From contig JAGCRW010000019.1 in the NCBI GenBank assembly GCA_017964485.1, positions 1 to 47,680 on the forward strand: DNA of 47,680 nucleotides, in the 5' to 3' direction. Under the pieces are notes generated by a model. It saw only the letters and a list, made by a program, of their open reading frames with translations, did not search any database and had not been told where the DNA came from. Positions within the stretch are counted from its first letter, which is position 1. The number at the start of each line of letters is the position of its first letter. Position numbers and translations under genes: made by a program. This DNA comes from Muribaculaceae bacterium. GTDB taxonomy: Bacteria > Bacteroidota > Bacteroidia > Bacteroidales > Muribaculaceae. Below, one piece after another: positions 8,315-17,511 of this stretch.

Positions 8315-8377
8315 AATTCCCCGCCCTTAGTTGTCAATGCGAGACGACAATCCGCATCAACAACAATCACAGATAAA

Positions 8378-8412
8378 GTGCTATATCGGTAAAAAAATCG
8401 CCGATTTAGCAC
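8378..8412. terminator. Hairpin after the NigD-like gene, possible terminator
   Basis: GTGCTATATCGG (8378-8389) pairs with CCGATTTAGCAC (8401-8412), with one T-T mismatch and an 11-nt A-rich loop. The flank is AT-rich but has no long T-run. It lies about 65 bp after the upstream stop codon and 70 bp before the next promoter. Confidence 0.5.
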
Positions 8413-8484
8413 TTGATTATTGAATTATTTTCCCACACAAATTGCCTTTAATTGACCGCAAATTGTCAATTAATGGCATTTTTT

Positions 8485-8516
8485 TTGGAAAGATGGCATC
8501 TTTTTTTGTAATTTTG
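8485..8516 (+). promoter_or_regulatory. Predicted strong promoter of the RNA leader / restriction cassette
   Basis: A T-tract ending TTG (8485-8487), 21 nt, then a perfect -7 element TAATTTTG (8509-8516) followed by CA. This fits the Bacteroidetes consensus TTTG-N19-21-TAnnTTTG. The predicted transcript starts near 8522, about 310 nt ahead of the first large coding region. Confidence 0.7.
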
Positions 8517-8522
8517 CACTTG

Positions 8523-8835
8523 TCTTGCAGGAGCCATAGAGATGGAGCAACTTTTAGCAAGCACATTTTAGACATATAACGGAAGCGTTAAAGATATTAT
8601 CCTGACACGAAATCTGGACAATTTCAAAAAGAGTAAGGATGATAGACAATAACGCTCACGCTATGTGCATGTTATATCACCCTTGGGTGAACTATATCGT
8701 GCCAGAGCGTGGGCTATTGTTTGTTACTTACTCTTGGTAGTCCAGAACCTCGTGTCGGTAGCAATTCAATAGTCCCACGCTTTTTTGTGCCACCATATCG
8801 CGGCATCGGGACTTTGCCGCCACCCTGTGCCTTTT
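8523..8835 (+). ncRNA. Highly structured RNA leader upstream of the restriction-like cassette
   Basis: A long, nearly continuous hairpin runs from 8604 to 8756. The paired segments, from outside in, are GACACGA (8604-8610) with TCGTGTC (8750-8756); TCTGGAC (8613-8619) with GTCCAGA (8740-8746); AAGAGTAAG (8629-8637) with CTTACTCTT (8727-8735); ACAATA (8646-8651) with TATTGT (8715-8720); GCTCACGCT (8654-8662) with AGCGTGGGC (8706-8714); GCATG (8667-8671) with CGTGC (8698-8702); and the apex CACCC-TT-GGGTG (8678-8689). A second helix pairs AGTCCC (8771-8776) with GGGACT (8808-8813). It follows a clear promoter and ends at the start codon at 8836. It could be a cis-acting leader or a processed small RNA. 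I cannot name an RNA family for it. Confidence 0.7.
8542..8571 (+). CDS. Possible 9-residue leader peptide (uORF)
   Basis: ATG at 8542 encodes MEQLLASTF followed by TAG. An AGGAG motif (8529-8533) lies 8 nt upstream, an ideal Shine-Dalgarno spacing and rare in Bacteroidetes. It begins about 20 nt after the predicted transcription start and ends 32 nt before the large hairpin. It is too short for any homology judgement; translation is a hypothesis. Confidence 0.3.
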   Translation: MEQLLASTF

Positions 8836-9987
8836 ATGGCAAATGATAACGAAATCACCATCAATCAGGTAGATATTCAGGAAAACTATATCCTTAAGAA
8901 CTATGGCGAAGCTGTGCTTAAGCGGCTTCTCAAAGACCACACCACGTCGCGCACACGCAAAAAAGACGATGGCGAGTACACCTTTATTATATGGGCCACC
9001 GACAATTACGAGCCGCTCGGCACGGGCTACCATTTCCACGATGAGATAACGATAGAGCGCATCACCGGCAAAAACAGTGGTGTGATAAAGCCGCGTGTAG
9101 TAAAAAGCCGCGAGGAGCAGCAGCGCCGCGTGCGCGACAAGGCCGAGGTGTTCACCCCTTCATGGGTGTGCAACAAGCAGAATAACCTGATTGATGAGGC
9201 GTGGTTTGGTCGCAAAAATGTGTTTAATAGCGAGATAGACAACCCTGATGGATCCCACACTTGGCACACAACCGAGGGAAAAATAGCTTTCCCCAACGAC
9301 TCAGAAAAGACGTGGCAACGCTACGTGGAGGACACACGCCTCGAAATCACCTGCGGCGAGGCACCCTATCTTGTGAGCCGCTACGACACCATCACTGGCG
9401 AGTTCATCTACCCCCTTAATGCTCGCATCGGCCTCCTCGACCGAAAGTTCAGAGTCATCAACGAGAATGTCAACGACCGCGCTGAATGGGAATATTGGGC
9501 AAAAATCGCTTTACAAAGCACCTATGGTTATGAATGGCAGGGCGACAGCCTGCTTATTGCACGAGAGAATCTGTTGTTCACTTTCATCGACAACTACCGA
9601 GATAAATTCCAATCTGAACCAAGCAAACGCCTACTACAATATGTCGCCTATGTCATCTCCTGGAATATCTGGCAGATGGACGGACTGAAGTTTGTGGTGC
9701 CACGAAGCTGCGAGAACGCTAATCCAAAGCCCGTTTCGGTGCAGATGTCACTCTTTGCAGAGCCCGAGATAGAGCCTTTCCAAAAGTCAATCTGCGACGG
9801 CTGCACCACTGGCGACAACACTAAGCACGATGGCGACTATTGTATGATAAGGGACTGGAAAGCGAAAAAAAAAAGCGAAAACGACTGTAGCGAAGACGAA
9901 GACACCGAAACCATAAAACTATATATAAACTTGACCACCACTAACACAAAAATAGCAAAAAAAATTGACAATCAAATAATAAGATAA
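8836..9987 (+). CDS. Restriction-modification-associated small subunit ('subunit M' type)
   Basis: A 383-residue protein taken from ATG 8836 (MANDNEITINQVDIQEN). An in-frame ATG 17 codons earlier lies inside the RNA helix at 8771-8813 and is unlikely. Residues 103-110 read AEVFTPSW, followed by VCNKQNNLIDEAWFGR. This resembles the FTP motif at the start of many N6-adenine methylases, yet no motif I or NPPY follows in this protein. The middle part (about 150-290) is alpha/beta with many aromatic residues. The C-terminal part contains cysteines (CDGCTTGDNTKHDGDYC) that may bind metal. A run of ten A (9865-9874) precedes the last 35 or so residues. The stop is 2 nt before the next start, so the two proteins are probably made as partners. 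Confidence 0.65.
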   Translation: MANDNEITINQVDIQENYILKNYGEAVLKRLLKDHTTSRTRKKDDGEYTFIIWATDNYEPLGTGYHFHDEITIERITGKNSGVIKPRVVKSREEQQRRVRDKAEVFTPSWVCNKQNNLIDEAWFGRKNVFNSEIDNPDGSHTWHTTEGKIAFPNDSEKTWQRYVEDTRLEITCGEAPYLVSRYDTITGEFIYPLNARIGLLDRKFRVINENVNDRAEWEYWAKIALQSTYGYEWQGDSLLIARENLLFTFIDNYRDKFQSEPSKRLLQYVAYVISWNIWQMDGLKFVVPRSCENANPKPVSVQMSLFAEPEIEPFQKSICDGCTTGDNTKHDGDYCMIRDWKAKKKSENDCSEDEDTETIKLYINLTTTNTKIAKKIDNQIIR

Positions 9988-9989
9988 GC

Positions 9990-12900
9990 ATGAAATACTC
10001 ATCATTCAAATTCAAGCTCATCTATGTTTTCAGGATAAACGATGAAGAGCACAAAGGTTGCCTCAAGATAGGTGAGGCAACCATTGAAAGCGACAAGCAC
10101 GGCGACCTTACCCCCAATAGCCACTCTCTCAACCAAGCTGCCAAGCAGAGAATAAACCAGTACACCAACACTGCTGGCATCACCTATGAGCTGCTACACA
10201 CGCAACTGGCAATGAAAGGCTACAAGATGATTGGTGACCACGATGTGCACAAGGTGTTAACGCGCTCGGGCATAAAACACAAGTTCTTCAACACTAGCAA
10301 CAAGAGCAACGAGTGGTTTAAGTGTAACCTTGAGACTGCCAAAGCGTCAATAGAAGCCGCTCTCGATGGAAAAAGCGCACTTGACAATGTGTTAGAGACA
10401 GTCGAAATCCCTGACCCCATCATCTTCCGTCCCGAGCAGCGAGAGGCCATCGACAAGGCAGTGAAGCACTTCCGTACCCACAAAAAATACCTCTGGAACG
10501 CGAAGATGCGTTTCGGCAAGACATTGTGCGCCTTGCAGGTTATAAAGGAATGCGGTTTCAAGCGCACCCTGATTTTCACTCATCGTCCCGACGTGATTGA
10601 TGGCTGGAGCACCGATTTCAATAAAATATTCTTTGAGAAGGACAGCCATTACATCTTCAGCTCCAAGCGACTGGGCAGCGAGCTCGAAGAAACCGAGAAG
10701 CGCGCCAAGAACGACAAAGACTTGTGCTATATCTATTTTGCCTCGACACAAGACCTGCGAGGCTCAAAGATTGTGGGTGGCAACCACGAGAAAAACGACC
10801 TCGTATTTGGCACCAACTGGGACTTGGTAATCATCGACGAGGCGCACGAGGGATTGCAGACTGAGCTGGGCAAAGCAGTGCGTGATGCCGTTAAAAGCGA
10901 ATCAACAAAAGAGTTGCTGCTTTCGGGAACACCATTCAACTTGTTTAGCGAGTTTGATGACGACAGCACCTACACTTGGGACTATGTGAAAGAACAGAAA
11001 GCAAAACATGACTGGACACAAAACCACTATCTTGACCCCAACCCTTACGATGTATTGCCCCAGATGCACATCCTCACCTTTAACTTAGGTGATATGTTGG
11101 GCAAAGAGGGCGACTATATCGATATTGAAGATAAAGCCTTCAATTTCAGGGAGTTCTTCCGCACTTGGCGCGGCAACAAAGCCGAAGACTATCGCGAAAT
11201 GCCTGCTGGCGCACAAATTGGCGACTTTGTGCATGAGCAAGACGTGAATAATTTCCTGAACTTGCTTATTCGCCCCAACGAGGAGAACAATATGCCCTTC
11301 TCTACTGATGCTAATCGAACAAACTTCCGCCATACCTTGTGGATGGTGCCAGGAGTGAAGGAAGGTGCAGCTCTTGCTAAATTGCTAAAAAACCACGATG
11401 TGTTTGGGCAGTTCACCATTGTCAATGTGGCTGGCGAGGGTAGTGTTGATGATGAAAAAAGTAACGACAAAGCGTTGCAAGAGGTACGTAAAGCCATCGG
11501 CGAGCATCCCGAGAAAACACAAACCATCACCCTCTCGTGCGGTAAGCTGACGACTGGTGTCAACATCAAGGAGTGGAGCGCAGTACTCATGCTTGCTGGT
11601 TCCTATTCCACAAGCGCATCGAGCTACATGCAGACCATTTTCCGCGTGCAGACTCCAGCCGAGATAGCTGGTCGTGCAAAGACCGACTGTTACGTGTTTG
11701 ACTTTGCTCCTGACCGCACTTTAAAAGTGATGTCACAAGCCGCACAGCTCTCAAACAAAGGCAAAAAGAAAGAGGACCAGCAGAGCGACAAGGCGTTGAT
11801 AGGCGAATTTCTGAACTTCTGCCCCATCATCTCCTATCGTGGTACACAGATGACACACTACGATGTGAACTCCATGCTTGAACACTTGAAGCGAGTGTAT
11901 GTTGACCGCGTGGTAAGTCGAGGCTTTGAGGACAACCACCTCTATAACGACCAATTGCTGAAACTCGAGGGCATTGAACTGAAGCAGTTTGCACATCTCA
12001 AAGAAATTATTGGCAGCACCAAAGCGAGCCATAAGACCGACGAGATTGACGTCAACACCACTGGCATGACCGATGAGGAGCGTGACAAGGAAGAGAAGAT
12101 CAAGAAAAAACCAAAACGCGAACGCACGCCCGAGGAAGAAGCCCTGCTCGCCGAGCTGCGCAAAAAGAAAAAGCACCGCGATAGTGCCATCAGCATTTTG
12201 CGAGGTATTTCGATAAGAATGCCACTAATGATTTATGGTGCCGACCTGAAAGACAAAGAGGAAATTACCATCGAGAACTTCGCCAGCAAAGTTGATGACA
12301 GCTCATGGGAGGAATTTATGCCCAAAGGCGTTGACAAGCAACTGTTTGCGCAATTCATCAAGTATTATGATGCCGACATCTTCCGTGCCGCCGGGCGGCA
12401 GATTCGTGACATGGCAAGAGCCTCAGACCAGATGCCCATCACCGAGCGAGTGAAGCGCATAGGCCAGATCTTCTCGTCATTCCGTAACCCCGACAAGGAA
12501 ACAGTGCTCACACCCTGGCGTGTGGTGAATATGCACATGAGCGACACCCTAGGCGGCTATGATTTCTTCGCACCCGACCACCCCGACACAATGCTCGCCG
12601 AACCTCGATTCGTGGACCAAGGGGAGGTGACGAAGAATGTATTTGGGGCAAAGAACACGCGACTCCTAGAAATCAACTCAAAATCAGGACTTTATCCACT
12701 AAATCTCGCCTACAGCATTTACCGCTACCGCATCGACAACAAGCTAGAGAAATTTGCTGGCGACGAACCAACATTAGAGGAGCAATACAATCTGTGGGAC
12801 AAGATTTTACGTGAGAATCTATTTGTGATTTGCAAGACCGAGATGGCAAAGTCCATCACCAAGAGGACATTGCGAGGATTCCGCACGGCAAAGGTCAATG

Positions 12901-14021
12901 CCAAGTACTTTGAAGATCTCGTTAACCAAATCAAAAACAAAAAAGATAAATTCATTAAACAAATCGCGAAAGGTAACACTTACTGGAACGCAAACACCGA
13001 CAACTTTATGAAATTCAATGCAATAGTAGGAAATCCGCCATATCAGATTGTTGATGGAGGTGGTGGCAGTAGCTCTATTCCAATTTATAATGCTTTTGTT
13101 TCTATTTCTAAAGCTATTTGTCCCAATTATATTTCAATGATTATGCCAGCTCGTTGGTATAGTGGAGGTAAAGGGCTTGATGAATTTAGAACTGAGACCA
13201 TAAAAGATAAGCATTTTATGATACTTCACGATTATGTGGATTCAAGCGTTTGCTTTAAGAATGTTGCAATTGAAGGAGGTATTTGCTACTTCCTATGGAG
13301 CTCAAAACACAATGCTGAGTGTAAGGTATCTACCCATTTAATTAATGGTGAAATCGAATGTTCAAAACGTTTCCTCTCTAATGATGATACAGATATCTTT
13401 ATTCGATTAGAAAAAGTTGAAGAAATCATTTTAAAAGTGATAAAGCATTCTTCTTTTACACCATTTTCTAATAGTGTTTTCCCAAGAAATTATTTTGGAA
13501 TATCATCAATAGATGAAAAAGATATTATTAGCAAAAATTCCAAGGAATATAGTTATAACATTCTTGCAAGAATTAACAATTCAAGAACTTGGAAGAAACT
13601 TAGAACTGATTTTTCTATTAAAAAAACAAGCGGAGATATTGATACATTAGCGAATAGCTGGAAGGTGTTTGTCAGCAAGGCAGATGGGGCTGCTGGACAA
13701 ATAGGAAATCCTATTCCAGCAAAAATCATTGGTAAAGCGGAACTTGGAGAACCAAAATCAATATGCACAGAAACATTTCTTGTTGTAGGTCCTTTTAAAA
13801 ATAAAACTCAAGCTAAGAACGTAGTTCATTATATGACTACAAAATTCTTCCGATTCTGTGTTGGTTCTCGTAAAACAAAGAATATGACACAAGACACCTA
13901 TAAATTTGTCCCCCTCCAAGACTTCAATGAGGAGTGGACAGATGAGAAGTTGTACAAGAAATATGGGTTGAGTGAAGATGAGATAGCCTATATCGAGAGC
14001 GTAATTAAACCTATGGAGTGA
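9990..14021 (+). CDS. GIY-YIG-like / SF2 helicase / N6-adenine methylase fusion (type ISP- or IIG-like)
   Basis: A 1343-residue protein. Residues about 8-130 resemble the GIY-YIG-like T5orf172/MUG113 domain (KLIYVFRIN; CLKIGEAT with K26-I27-G28; EWFKCNLETA). An SF2 helicase follows: motif I MRFGKT (173-178), motif II DEAH (283-286), motif III SGTP (312-315), TTGVNI (521-526) and QTIFRVQ (548-554). After a charged linker (about 690-740) comes a coupler and a methylase. NPPY, motif IV of N6-adenine methylases, is at 1015-1018. Upstream, LLEINSKSGLYPL (892-904) sits where the SAM motif LEPSAGSG is expected, with the first glycine replaced by lysine. The C-terminus (about 1030-1305) would be the target-recognition domain. 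Architecture parallels single-chain ATP-dependent restriction enzymes, with a GIY-YIG-like domain in place of an Mrr-type nuclease. Confidence 0.8.
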   Translation: MKYSSFKFKLIYVFRINDEEHKGCLKIGEATIESDKHGDLTPNSHSLNQAAKQRINQYTNTAGITYELLHTQLAMKGYKMIGDHDVHKVLTRSGIKHKFFNTSNKSNEWFKCNLETAKASIEAALDGKSALDNVLETVEIPDPIIFRPEQREAIDKAVKHFRTHKKYLWNAKMRFGKTLCALQVIKECGFKRTLIFTHRPDVIDGWSTDFNKIFFEKDSHYIFSSKRLGSELEETEKRAKNDKDLCYIYFASTQDLRGSKIVGGNHEKNDLVFGTNWDLVIIDEAHEGLQTELGKAVRDAVKSESTKELLLSGTPFNLFSEFDDDSTYTWDYVKEQKAKHDWTQNHYLDPNPYDVLPQMHILTFNLGDMLGKEGDYIDIEDKAFNFREFFRTWRGNKAEDYREMPAGAQIGDFVHEQDVNNFLNLLIRPNEENNMPFSTDANRTNFRHTLWMVPGVKEGAALAKLLKNHDVFGQFTIVNVAGEGSVDDEKSNDKALQEVRKAIGEHPEKTQTITLSCGKLTTGVNIKEWSAVLMLAGSYSTSASSYMQTIFRVQTPAEIAGRAKTDCYVFDFAPDRTLKVMSQAAQLSNKGKKKEDQQSDKALIGEFLNFCPIISYRGTQMTHYDVNSMLEHLKRVYVDRVVSRGFEDNHLYNDQLLKLEGIELKQFAHLKEIIGSTKASHKTDEIDVNTTGMTDEERDKEEKIKKKPKRERTPEEEALLAELRKKKKHRDSAISILRGISIRMPLMIYGADLKDKEEITIENFASKVDDSSWEEFMPKGVDKQLFAQFIKYYDADIFRAAGRQIRDMARASDQMPITERVKRIGQIFSSFRNPDKETVLTPWRVVNMHMSDTLGGYDFFAPDHPDTMLAEPRFVDQGEVTKNVFGAKNTRLLEINSKSGLYPLNLAYSIYRYRIDNKLEKFAGDEPTLEEQYNLWDKILRENLFVICKTEMAKSITKRTLRGFRTAKVNAKYFEDLVNQIKNKKDKFIKQIAKGNTYWNANTDNFMKFNAIVGNPPYQIVDGGGGSSSIPIYNAFVSISKAICPNYISMIMPARWYSGGKGLDEFRTETIKDKHFMILHDYVDSSVCFKNVAIEGGICYFLWSSKHNAECKVSTHLINGEIECSKRFLSNDDTDIFIRLEKVEEIILKVIKHSSFTPFSNSVFPRNYFGISSIDEKDIISKNSKEYSYNILARINNSRTWKKLRTDFSIKKTSGDIDTLANSWKVFVSKADGAAGQIGNPIPAKIIGKAELGEPKSICTETFLVVGPFKNKTQAKNVVHYMTTKFFRFCVGSRKTKNMTQDTYKFVPLQDFNEEWTDEKLYKKYGLSEDEIAYIESVIKPME
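13030..13905 (+). other. AT-rich, probably exchanged target-recognition segment
   Basis: Composition changes abruptly inside the fusion gene. My hand counts give about 57% GC for 12361-12420 and 52% for 12601-12660, but 23% for 13381-13440 and 27% for 13441-13500. Normal composition returns near 13905 (from the codons for FVPLQDFNEEW). The segment starts just after the NPPY motif and ends before the last 35 or so residues, the part expected to determine DNA target specificity. Confidence 0.75.
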
Positions 14022-14202: not shown

Positions 14203-17200
14203 TTATTGTGCAGTAAATGAGGTGAACGAGGTTGTTCCCTGATGGGTGCTGCCCAGATACACGCCGTGCCATGCTGTAGTGGCATTGGTTGGAGCTGTGG
14301 TGCTATACTTGATGGTGTAGCTCTGGTTCTTGGTCATGCCCTTAGCAGTGAACAGCGACAGAGAACTAGAGAATGCAGCCTCTACACTATAAGTAATCAG
14401 GTTTGTGCCACTGCTGTTGGCAATGGTATAGTAGCGCCCTGTGCTATAACTCAATGAACTGGTGCTCAGGTAGTAACCTTGCACAGCGCTACCAATGCCG
14501 CTGGATCCTCCCCAGCCGCCGCCACCGCCTTGGTTGGCACCACCACTGATGGCGTAGCCGTTGCCGGTAATGGTGATATAGCTATTGTTGTCGCAGTCGA
14601 GACCTTCCTCAGGAGCGCCCTTGCTGGTGTAGGCAAGGATGCATCCGTTGCCAATTTCAACAGCTCCTGTGCGTCCGTAGTTGCTATCAACAGCGTCGTT
14701 GCCGTTGGAGTAAACAACTGTCACGCCACCTGCAAACTTGATGGGGCCGGCGCAGTTCATACCATCGTCGTAGGCCTTGTAGTAGTGGTTGCCACCATTG
14801 ATGGTGATACTGGTCTTAGACTCAATGCCTTCGGCGCCATTGGTAGCTGTAGAAATTTCACTCTGGCCACCATTGATAACGATAGTTCCCATTACCTTGA
14901 TAGCCTTAGCGCTGCCTGAGCCGGTGGATTGGCCACCGCCTGGCCAGCCACCACCGCCGCTGTTGCCTCCTGCTGAGCTGCCAGTGGTGATAACGGTGAG
15001 TGTTGGGCCTTCGCCACCGCTCACACCTTGCACGTAGTTGCCGTTAACCTTGATACCCTTGCCACCAGTGCCGGTCATCTTGATGTAGATGGTACCACCC
15101 AGCATGTTCAGGTTGCCGTCGGTCTTGAAACCCTTGGCTGTGTAGTAGTCACCCGACGATGCCGACTGAGAAGTGCCAGTGTTATTGATAGTGATAGAAC
15201 CGCCATTAGTAGTGATGTTGGTTGTAGAAACAGCCTTACCAGCCACACCGCTCGAGTTAATCTTGAGCACGCCATCGTTCATCACAAAGTCAACAGCCTT
15301 GATGCCGCTGCTGTAGCTGGCATCGCTATTGATAACCTGCATAGCACCGCTTGGTGTGAGGGTGATGTCGCCACCGTTGATGGTAACAGTAGCCTTGCTC
15401 TTGATGCTCTTGCTCATTGAGCCGTTGTTGGCAACAGTAATTGTGCCGGCATCGATAGTGATGTTGCCATCGGCCTTGATGCCTGCAGCATTGTAGCTTG
15501 TGCCAGTGTCCTCGCTGATGTCGCTTGTGCCACCATATTGTGATGTAACATTACTAATAGTATAGACGCGGGGATTGGCACCCTGACTATAGCTGTTGGT
15601 AATCATGTAGTAAACATCTTGCCCTGAGGTTGGACCGCTAAATGTGGAAGTCTGAATACCAACAGTGCCATACATACTACTATTATAGTTGTCACCCTTG
15701 ATATAATAGGTGTCACTGCTAGCTTGTCCAAAGTCGTAGTAGTAGAACGTGGTAGTAGTGCTGCCCGAAGTTTTTTGAACGGTGTTGTTGGTGATATTTG
15801 CCACTAATGTTCCATCACTCTTGTAAAGATACATACTTGAATTGGTCCACGCATTGCTACCACCACCAGTACCACCTGAGCCACTTGTGGGTTTGGCAAC
15901 ATAAACCTTGTAAGAATTTTGAGTCTCGCCACCACTAGAGCTGCCTGCCTCTACAGTGCCACCCTGGCCGTTGGCCTTGATGTTGATGGTAGTTGTGGCG
16001 TTAGCCTCATCGATGGTGATAGTGCCGTCGGCATTCAGGCCCTTGCCACCCTGTGCGGTGTTGGTAAGATCAACGTTACCACCATGAATCAGGATGTCAC
16101 CGCCAGTCTTCACGCAAGTGCCGTAGTCAACATCGCCGTCGCCAGCCACAAGGTTGCCGCTCTGAACCACCTTGAGGGTGCCCTTGAGCATGATAAAGTT
16201 GGAAGCGGCCTTGATGCCCTTGCCACCAACGCTTGTCATAGTCATGTCGAGAGTACCGTCTTTGAGAGTCACCTCACCGGTGTTCTCCTCATCTTCTATG
16301 ATATTGTCGTCGTCATCGGTCTCATAACTTACCTGGATGCCGTCGTCAGTAACGTTCTTGATAGTGACCTTACCGCCATTCTGCAAGTAATACTGGTTGA
16401 TGTTGAAACCATCGCCCTTAGCGCCTAAAATGTTGATTTCGCCTACGGTCTTCTTAACTTCCACATACTCTTTGCCCCAGAAGGCGTTCTTTGAGTTACC
16501 AGTGATGTTAAGGATACCAGCGCCCTTAAACTCGGTGTGGCCCTTCACAGCGAAGCAGCCCTTCTGCGAGCCACCTTCGCCGTCGGTGAGGGTGTTGGTT
16601 GTTCCCTCTACGAGCTCAACAGCGATGCGCTTGCCGTCACGTATGTTGATGGCTGCGCTGTCGGGGTTGTTCAGTGTAAGTCCATTGAGTCGCACAGTGG
16701 CTTTGAAACTACCATCTTGATAGAATGAGCCGTTGTTGGTGCTGCCAGCGAGGGTATAGGTAATCTCGTTGGCCACGTCAGCGTCTTGCAGAGCCACCAC
16801 ATGAGCACCATTGACCGAAGCAGTGATGTTCTTGGCTATGTTACCTGCCACAATCACTGTGGCGGTGTTGCCGTTGTAGGCTACATCCACGGTGTTGTCG
16901 GCAACAGGAGTGTTGTCAACATAGATTTCATCCACGTCGGCGATGTTGAAGGTCTTGCCCTGAGCAGTAAACGAGGTTCCGTTATTGTAGGGCATAGATT
17001 CAAGCTGAGCGGTAGTGAACGCCCATTTCACGTTGCCAGTAACAACCCACATCGTCTGGTCACCATCTGTAATCTCGCCTAGTGAGCGACCACCACCCAA
17101 GAGGATGTTGTAAACAAATGTCACATCGCTAGCAGTAATAGTGCCGTCGCCGTCTTGGTCGCCGTTAACTATAGCGCTGTCATCATTGTTGAGCAGCCAG

Positions 17201-17511
17201 TTGTAGAGGGCTGTGACATCAGAACTAGTTACAATACCGTCACCATCTACGTCGCCAGCAACTACAGGATTTTCATCGGCTCCCAGTCCAAACATCATAT
17301 ATAGCACATTGCTCAGGTCGTTACTGCCAAGCACCGTGCCGTTATTGGAAGCCACAAGCTTGCCATTCTCAAAATGAAGTGTCAAGCCCTCGGTTGCAGG
17401 ATAAGAAGTCTCTGAACCGCCTGACAGTCCCACATTCAGATAGGGGTAGATAGTAGCCGATGCCACCATCACTCCTGCAAGAATGAGGATTGATAAAATC
17501 GTTTTCTTCAT
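14203..17511 (-). CDS. Secreted carbohydrate-binding beta-helix protein (Cthe_2159-like) with dockerin-like repeats
   Basis: A 1102-residue exported protein with N-terminal signal MKKTILSILILAGVMVASA. Residues about 83-140 form a dockerin-like pair of calcium-binding loops (DVDGDGIVTSSDVTALYNWL and DQDGDGTITASDVTFVYNIL). From about residue 215 there is a long parallel beta-helix built of short turns such as AAINIRDGK, GDGFNINQ, GGKGIKAA, TINGGDITL and AEGIESKTSITINGG, the pattern of the Cthe_2159-type carbohydrate-binding domain known to bind polygalacturonate. A non-helical glycine/tyrosine/serine-rich insertion lies at about 560-690. The C-terminus (about 1010-1102) is a separate beta domain. 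No catalytic motif is seen. A role in binding plant or host polysaccharide at the cell surface is inferred. Confidence 0.75.
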   Translation of the reverse strand: MKKTILSILILAGVMVASATIYPYLNVGLSGGSETSYPATEGLTLHFENGKLVASNNGTVLGSNDLSNVLYMMFGLGADENPVVAGDVDGDGIVTSSDVTALYNWLLNNDDSAIVNGDQDGDGTITASDVTFVYNILLGGGRSLGEITDGDQTMWVVTGNVKWAFTTAQLESMPYNNGTSFTAQGKTFNIADVDEIYVDNTPVADNTVDVAYNGNTATVIVAGNIAKNITASVNGAHVVALQDADVANEITYTLAGSTNNGSFYQDGSFKATVRLNGLTLNNPDSAAINIRDGKRIAVELVEGTTNTLTDGEGGSQKGCFAVKGHTEFKGAGILNITGNSKNAFWGKEYVEVKKTVGEINILGAKGDGFNINQYYLQNGGKVTIKNVTDDGIQVSYETDDDDNIIEDEENTGEVTLKDGTLDMTMTSVGGKGIKAASNFIMLKGTLKVVQSGNLVAGDGDVDYGTCVKTGGDILIHGGNVDLTNTAQGGKGLNADGTITIDEANATTTINIKANGQGGTVEAGSSSGGETQNSYKVYVAKPTSGSGGTGGGSNAWTNSSMYLYKSDGTLVANITNNTVQKTSGSTTTTFYYYDFGQASSDTYYIKGDNYNSSMYGTVGIQTSTFSGPTSGQDVYYMITNSYSQGANPRVYTISNVTSQYGGTSDISEDTGTSYNAAGIKADGNITIDAGTITVANNGSMSKSIKSKATVTINGGDITLTPSGAMQVINSDASYSSGIKAVDFVMNDGVLKINSSGVAGKAVSTTNITTNGGSITINNTGTSQSASSGDYYTAKGFKTDGNLNMLGGTIYIKMTGTGGKGIKVNGNYVQGVSGGEGPTLTVITTGSSAGGNSGGGGWPGGGQSTGSGSAKAIKVMGTIVINGGQSEISTATNGAEGIESKTSITINGGNHYYKAYDDGMNCAGPIKFAGGVTVVYSNGNDAVDSNYGRTGAVEIGNGCILAYTSKGAPEEGLDCDNNSYITITGNGYAISGGANQGGGGGWGGSSGIGSAVQGYYLSTSSLSYSTGRYYTIANSSGTNLITYSVEAAFSSSLSLFTAKGMTKNQSYTIKYSTTAPTNATTAWHGVYLGSTHQGTTSFTSFTAQ

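Follow-up and report, generated by a model that had tools for sequence, protein, structure and literature searches.

The window, that is, the whole 47,680-nt stretch of a Muribaculaceae bacterium contig (JAGCRW010000019.1) that was analysed, carries a folded RNA of about 260 nt that has a promoter on one side and a DNA-methylase gene on the other, and this RNA apparently represents an undescribed on/off transcription switch (Table 1). The two genes that follow it, a methylase and a helicase-methylase, would together form the controlled unit in the window. No Pfam match at E ≤ 0.001 was found for the 383-aa product of the first, which was recognised by PADLOC. Past this cassette, a 1102-aa ORF on the minus strand (14203-17511) looks secreted and, by eye, has dockerin-like repeats. 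Just 5′ of the RNA core lies a short ORF of 9 codons (MEQLLASTF, 8541-8570); among the members compared by eye, a similar one is found in the close member L010 (MALSQQAFF) and none alike in L028 or L030.

Table 1 Features of the leader RNA and downstream genes, in window positions
Feature	Position	Strand	Basis
Bacteroidetes-type promoter: TTTG 8484-8487 and TAATTTTG (-7 type) 8509-8516	8484..8516	+	sequence
5′ hairpin H1 (CTTGC...GCAAG), sequence variable	8524..8561	+	MFE fold; compensatory change in L010 by eye
Strand a (CGTTAAAGATATTATCC), partner of strand b (helix P2)	8586..8602	+	P2 cis versus trans pairing
P6 5′ side, 8 nt	8603..8610	+	97.4% paired; two-sided change in all 8 pairs
hp1: AAT-[CTGGACA]-ATT, stem near-invariant	8611..8623	+	99% paired, little variation
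P7 5′ side	8629..8636	+	97.8% paired; two-sided change in all 6 counted pairs
Strand b (GGATGATAGACAATAACGCTCACGC), partner of a or c	8637..8661	+	pairing counts, covariation
Apical hairpin, variable	8662..8706	+	start of b core to start of c core 9-100 nt, median 16 (101 members)
Strand c (GCGTGGGCTATTGTTTGTTAC), partner of b (antiterminator) or d (terminator)	8707..8727	+	c-1 pairs both ways, 78/86 members
P7 3′ side	8728..8735	+	alignment pairing counts
hp2: GGT-[..GTCCAG..]-ACC; loop complementary to hp1 loop CTGGAC (kissing)	8736..8749	+	kissing-pair covariation
P6 3′ side	8750..8757	+	alignment pairing counts
Strand d (GTAGCAATTCAATAGTCCCACGC), partner of c (terminator, helix P4) or, in part, of the H3 loop	8758..8780	+	P4 cis versus trans; c-d counts
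U6 run, immediately 3′ of the c-d hairpin (intrinsic-terminator form)	8781..8786	+	c-d fold energy
Possible H3 hairpin GCGGCA[TCGGGACTT]TGCCGC; loop GGGACT complementary to AGTCCC 8771-8776	8800..8820	+	combined-score test
Gene 1, 383 aa, start codon ATG at 8836; PADLOC Type II methyltransferase model PDLC03390, E 9.9e-116	8836..9987	+	
Gene 2, 1343 aa, ResIII helicase domain and Eco57I-type methylase	9990..14021	+	Pfam PF04851, PF07669

The initial annotation of this DNA described a Bacteroidetes promoter followed by a structured RNA, and both were recovered: the promoter motif lies at 8509-8516, and the RNA at 8523-8835 has a minimum free energy (MFE) of -111.3 kcal/mol, compared with -77.2 ± 5.0 in 100 dinucleotide shuffles, none of which was equally stable (z = -6.88). 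The MFE fold also contains the two elements proposed at the time, a long hairpin (8604-8756) and a pairing of 8771-8776 with 8808-8813 (AGTCCC/GGGACT). However, the long hairpin proved to be one of two alternative pairings conserved by homologues, and the second may not be a plain hairpin: GGGACT could also sit in the loop of a separate 3′ hairpin, in which case the pairing would be a loop contact. The RNA had further been drawn as ending exactly at the start codon, which is not what we find: its core ends in a terminator-like hairpin and a U6 run, about 50 nt before the ATG.

BLAST of 8523-8838 against 150 related genomes gave matches in nine, including its own, three of them short (those of L017 and L019 were left out). 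As the element is close to a palindrome, the RNA at five BLAST loci proved to lie on the minus strand; after correction of the orientation, the same blocks were present in nine members. A covariance model (R1) was built from eight MAFFT-aligned sequences, including that of the window (202 positions; its E-values are rough). At E ≤ 1e-3, R1 matched 145 of 297 relatives, the source genome included, with up to eight matches within one genome and with the weak matches counted mostly by E-value alone; at E ≤ 1e-6, it matched 16 of 296 genomes sampled from the phylum. A pattern scan of genome contigs returned at least 120 stretches, and among those listed R1 matched 61 of 80 and then 34 of 40 at E < 1e-4, the matched ones listed being labelled Bacteroidota or Fibrobacter except for one MAG labelled Clostridium (L071). 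Twenty-four of the 25 listed stretches left unmatched were rescanned with a second model (R2; 68 rows, one of them antisense, L027:1514-1723:+), and none fell below E 0.08; they are labelled as other phyla (18), Bacteroidota (4), or without assignment (2). Since the unmatched stretches come mostly from other phyla, the model looks specific. With R2, 23 of 198 genomes from the phylum had the RNA (E ≤ 1e-6), and the window's own genome had it seven times (E ≤ 0.01, the weakest match at 1.2e-4).

None of the families of Rfam 15 matched the RNA at the gathering threshold in the window, in 17 loci, or in 17 further loci, the last set giving just two tRNAs, both outside the RNA. Relaxing the cut-off to E ≤ 10 on 8320-8900 yielded nine matches far below threshold, one of them inside the core (DUF805b, 12.7 of 35.6 bits), and E ≤ 1 on 12 loci yielded two, both outside the RNA. 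Bacteroidales-1 and 6S-flavo remained below threshold in the Rfam scans of the window and loci. No description of the leader was found in the literature searched, including the accessible portions of PMC13370916, PMC8040213 and PMC2864571; a large supplementary candidate list may hold an entry. The RNA is real, absent from Rfam, and widely distributed as a cis leader.

Structure was evaluated on an alignment (A5) made with a cut of E ≤ 1e-6, to which 100 of the 128 sources with a match contributed (L016, at 26.9 bits, dropped out), and which holds 102 rows, including the same antisense row. All 102 rows served for the structure and covariation counts, the c-d counts, and the comparison of G-U with A-C, and 101 for the cis-trans comparison of P2 and P4, the H3 score test, the hairpin energies and the P6 lengths. 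Over the proposed pairs, 91.9% of cells are standard, and two-sided changes number 1044, compared with 317.6 in shuffles and 114-158 in slid controls; as the shuffles ignore relatedness, these numbers are not probabilities, whereas the slid controls preserve it. The helices of R1 are biased toward themselves; P2, P4 and the hp1-hp2 kissing pairs lie outside R1. At least six of the seven P2 pairs form in cis in 93 of 101 members, the figure with partners taken from other members being 52%; for P4, the figures are 85 of 101 in cis and 42% in trans; in fixed alignment columns, P2 is 78.7% paired and the pieces of P4 66-81%. The kissing pairs (CUGGAC/GUCCAG) are 95.9% paired, with two-sided change in five of six. 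P6 measures 8 nt in 91 of 101 members, and these 101 contain 89 distinct 6-mers for P6 and 88 for P7. G-U pairs are far more numerous than A-C (371 versus 76, or 242 versus 74 minus two P3 wobble columns), which points to the sense RNA strand as the functional one. The covariance search and homologue collection suggested by the initial annotation thus brought out compensatory changes, and its proposal of a large cis-acting structured leader holds, with a promoter motif and a gene on its flanks. Having both covarying helices and a place between promoter and gene, the RNA is a cis-regulatory structured leader.

Within this leader, strand c is complementary to both b and d. The position test on c could be scored in 86 of 101 members (100 were used for the P1 part). 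The nucleotide preceding CGTG in c (c-1) pairs with b+1 in 80 of the 86 (shuffle maximum 69), with d+1 in 81 (shuffle maximum 67), and with both in 78. One position further out, the counts for c-2 are unconvincing (55/86 with b and 68/86 with d; shuffle maxima 59 and 71). Across 102 rows, c-d pairs are 81.9% paired versus 75.7 in shuffles, with 92 two-sided cells versus 41. By eye, the b, c and d cores of the distant L218, L220 and L222 have jointly changed to GCGTCC, GGACGC and GCGTCC-U run, and L221 retains the c-d match only via a wobble. Folded as 8707-8786, the c-d hairpin has an energy of -34.9 kcal/mol and runs straight into U6; over 101 members, the median is -28.4 (range -40.8 to -18.2). 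At the level of pairing, terminator and antiterminator share a strand and are mutually exclusive, as in an attenuator. A closing helix P1 (AAAAGCG/CGCUUUU), in which the A-rich 5′ flank would pair with the U run, looked plausible by eye but was discarded, with 90% in cis against 82% in trans at score 10.

In prefix folds of the leader, a-b forms first and b-c afterwards. The MFE prefers the antiterminated b-c fold, whose energy is lower than the simple sum of a-b and c-d by a median of 13.8 kcal/mol (101 members); termination would therefore need kinetic control or help. Past the U run, an H3-type hairpin with a loop matching d reaches a combined score of at least 24 in 43.6% of 101 members, compared with 20.9% with foreign d and 6.4% after shuffling, and a plain d-e complement test at score 14 gave 41% of 98 versus 14% (foreign) and 12% (shuffled). 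These scores suggest an H3-d pairing in a subset of members only.

The surroundings of the RNA were analysed for 125 matches of at least 33 bits. The flanking DNA sufficed for the ORF test in 110 of them, and an ORF of at least 60 aa was present in 108; the Pfam and PADLOC sets comprised 105 of these 108 (L138, L140 and L156 were excluded). For 72 of the 110, compared with 7 of 110 mirrored controls, an ATG ORF of at least 100 aa on the same strand begins 15-110 nt downstream. On the upstream side, 81 of 99 members have TAnnTTTG no more than 160 nt from the core; the count is 12 on the opposite strand and 8 in a more distant upstream window. A home-made signal-peptide rule classes 57 of 108 first downstream ORFs as secreted-looking versus 12 of 68 control ORFs, these controls being the longest upstream ORFs and hence another selection. 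The first genes are diverse: BspA-type LRR, dockerin, FGE-sulfatase and outer-membrane proteins and lipoproteins, and also DNA methylases (EcoRI type, Eco57I, HsdM, D12), restriction helicases and PLD-Snf2 proteins, with methylase and restriction genes in the minority. No single downstream gene function indicates a ligand.

Six further copies are present on other contigs of the same genome (L205-L210). Five precede, at 41-74 nt, ORFs with a signal-peptide-like start (by eye), and at the sixth (L210) no ORF of at least 70 aa starts within 250 nt. In other Bacteroidia, a SusC-like ORF, recognised by eye, starts 226-376 nt downstream at L190, L198, L199, L201 and L212 and 492 nt downstream at L194; none was seen nearby at L195, L213, L214, L217 or L219. 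The initial annotation had tied the leader to restriction systems, a link that the secreted-looking ORFs, both across the family and beside five of the six same-genome copies, do not sustain. The mixed neighbours rule out a restriction-specific role, and the restriction cassette is just one of many gene sets served by such leaders. Occurrence equally often away from such cassettes had been named as an argument against a functional cis-acting RNA, a test that does not hold in this form: the RNA does occur away from restriction genes, yet mostly directly upstream of genes. When first-gene proteins were scanned one by one, PADLOC matched 14 of 21 (6/10 and 7/10 chosen by eye, plus that of the window), but the 68 control ORFs also hold methylase and helicase families, so that we do not claim an enrichment in defence genes. 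Six members (L070, L086, L117, L140, L156 and L168) stand before a PLD-Snf2 helicase whose start is much alike in all of them, and the three of these proteins scanned (L070, L086 and L117) matched the PADLOC HKD+Snf2 model, making this helicase a candidate defence gene associated with the leader.

We consider it reasonably probable that the leader is a riboswitch-like, cis-regulatory transcription attenuator of a family outside Rfam. Transcription from the promoter would yield a leader of about 260 nt, which is seen as conserved sequence rather than as a transcript. As the polymerase moves, a would pair with b; once c emerges, b, P7 and P6 would zip into the long hairpin centred on b-c, the putative antiterminator. 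Alternatively, c and d would form a hairpin with a main stem of about 21 bp, followed by U6, the putative terminator. Covariation supports both pairings, and the prefix folds give their order; the timing is inferred. The hairpins hp1 and hp2 would form a four-way junction with P6 and P7, kissing through their loops. A ligand or protein that stabilises P6/P7, and with them b-c, would probably bind at this near-invariant kissing junction, so that binding should turn the gene on. We regard the conserved junction as a probable sensor candidate; its unpaired conserved bases are few for a small-molecule pocket. After read-through, the H3 loop just before the start codon could capture d (AGUCCC/GGGACU), which may lock the open state or alter access to the start codon. 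A broader proposal is possible, if rather doubtful: the leaders, with several copies per genome, may constitute a previously undescribed riboswitch-like class of Bacteroidota-Fibrobacter through which one common signal (a second messenger, or an envelope or phage cue) would control surface proteins, SusC-type receptors and restriction systems together as a regulon, via strand exchange in the kissing-loop four-way junction.

Several known RNAs share parts of this design. Terminator-type regulation before many gene classes is known from c-di-GMP riboswitches. The 6S RNA is, like the leader, a long bulged hairpin, of about 200 nt; however, seven R2 matches in one genome and a cis position set the leader apart, and 6S was rejected as an identity, as RF00013 had no match in the window's genome at E ≤ 0.001 and no Rfam model reached its threshold on the RNA. 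Processive antitermination RNAs (EAR/LoaP, PUT) are likewise large structured leaders close to the promoter, but the RNA described here has a built-in terminator that shares strand c with the antiterminator. As in trp-type attenuators, consecutive strands pair 1:2, 2:3 and 3:4 and a terminator is present; unlike in these, no conserved leader peptide was seen by eye among the members compared, no Rfam family matched (the trp-type Bacteroid-trp, RF01692, is listed in the accessible part of PMC2864571), and amino-acid genes are absent from the downstream-gene lists. As far as the same part of that paper describes them, the crcB and pfl motifs are 5′ leaders whose conserved structure is overlapped by a terminator and which precede several gene classes. 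The leader resembles them in these three respects and differs in its P6/P7 four-way junction with hp1-hp2 kissing loops and in its surface-protein and DNA-methylase genes. Fremin and Bhatt reported palindromic candidate RNAs from Bacteroidetes, among them HMP2_1032 (106 bp, near TonB; PMC8040213, accessible part). Like the leader, they are terminator-like palindromes of Bacteroidetes and may be part of the same RNA; going by the description in that part, lengths and neighbours of these candidates do not fit a 260-nt leader.

Other explanations must be weighed against attenuation. EAR/LoaP and UpxY-controlled leaders work by processive antitermination, and it is conceivable, although fairly unlikely, that an RNA-binding protein or a NusG-paralogue complex is recruited to the junction in this manner, the U-run hairpin being just the nearest terminator bypassed. 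The closeness of the promoter motif, the large pseudoknotted structure and the very diverse downstream genes would agree with this, as would the near-invariant hp1 sequence, which is expected of a protein site, but a processive device needs no covarying b/c/d exchange within the RNA itself. We consider it decidedly unlikely that promoter and U6 terminator release a 260-nt small RNA that acts in trans, with the downstream gene incidental. The leader does have its own promoter motif and a strong terminator form, and at seven loci inspected no same-strand ORF of at least 90 aa starts within 220 nt; however, the excess of same-strand ORFs 15-110 nt downstream over mirrored controls, the H3 pairing past the U run in a subset, and the fast divergence of P6/P7 sequences in a family with up to eight copies per genome speak against it.

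A static tertiary scaffold of stacked four-way junctions closed by kissing loops, acting on RNA stability or translation without switching, seems very unlikely. Written out, P2/P4 and P6/P7 leave each base with a single partner and might thus coexist in one static fold; indeed, P2, P4, P6, P7, P3 and the kissing pairs are compatible base by base, and the near-constant P6 length would fit a scaffold. Against this stand a position of c that pairs with b as well as with d, and the U run after d. Finally, the multiple copies per genome, and matches of some members on the other strand, which stem from near-palindromy, could point to a DNA-level palindrome such as a mobile repeat or recombination site. 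We find this scarcely credible given the excess of G-U over A-C pairs, the usual order of promoter, RNA and gene, and a P6 of almost constant length though its sequence has wholly changed.

If the leader does act as an attenuator, outer-surface genes, nutrient receptors and DNA-modification systems would be preceded by an unannotated RNA switch in a phylum of major importance in gut and rumen, and the trigger of this switch would be a regulatory signal overlooked by present annotation. The three-strand covariation makes the putative switch open to a direct reporter test.

Plasmid records of Parabacteroides distasonis and Bacteroides finegoldii also carry copies of the RNA, which overlap none of the features listed there (the gene table is incomplete), and R1 matched one of 16 viral contigs (L173). 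A further copy lies in a human faecal phage clone record that carries no annotation (L204; MT835917.1, 3012-3239).
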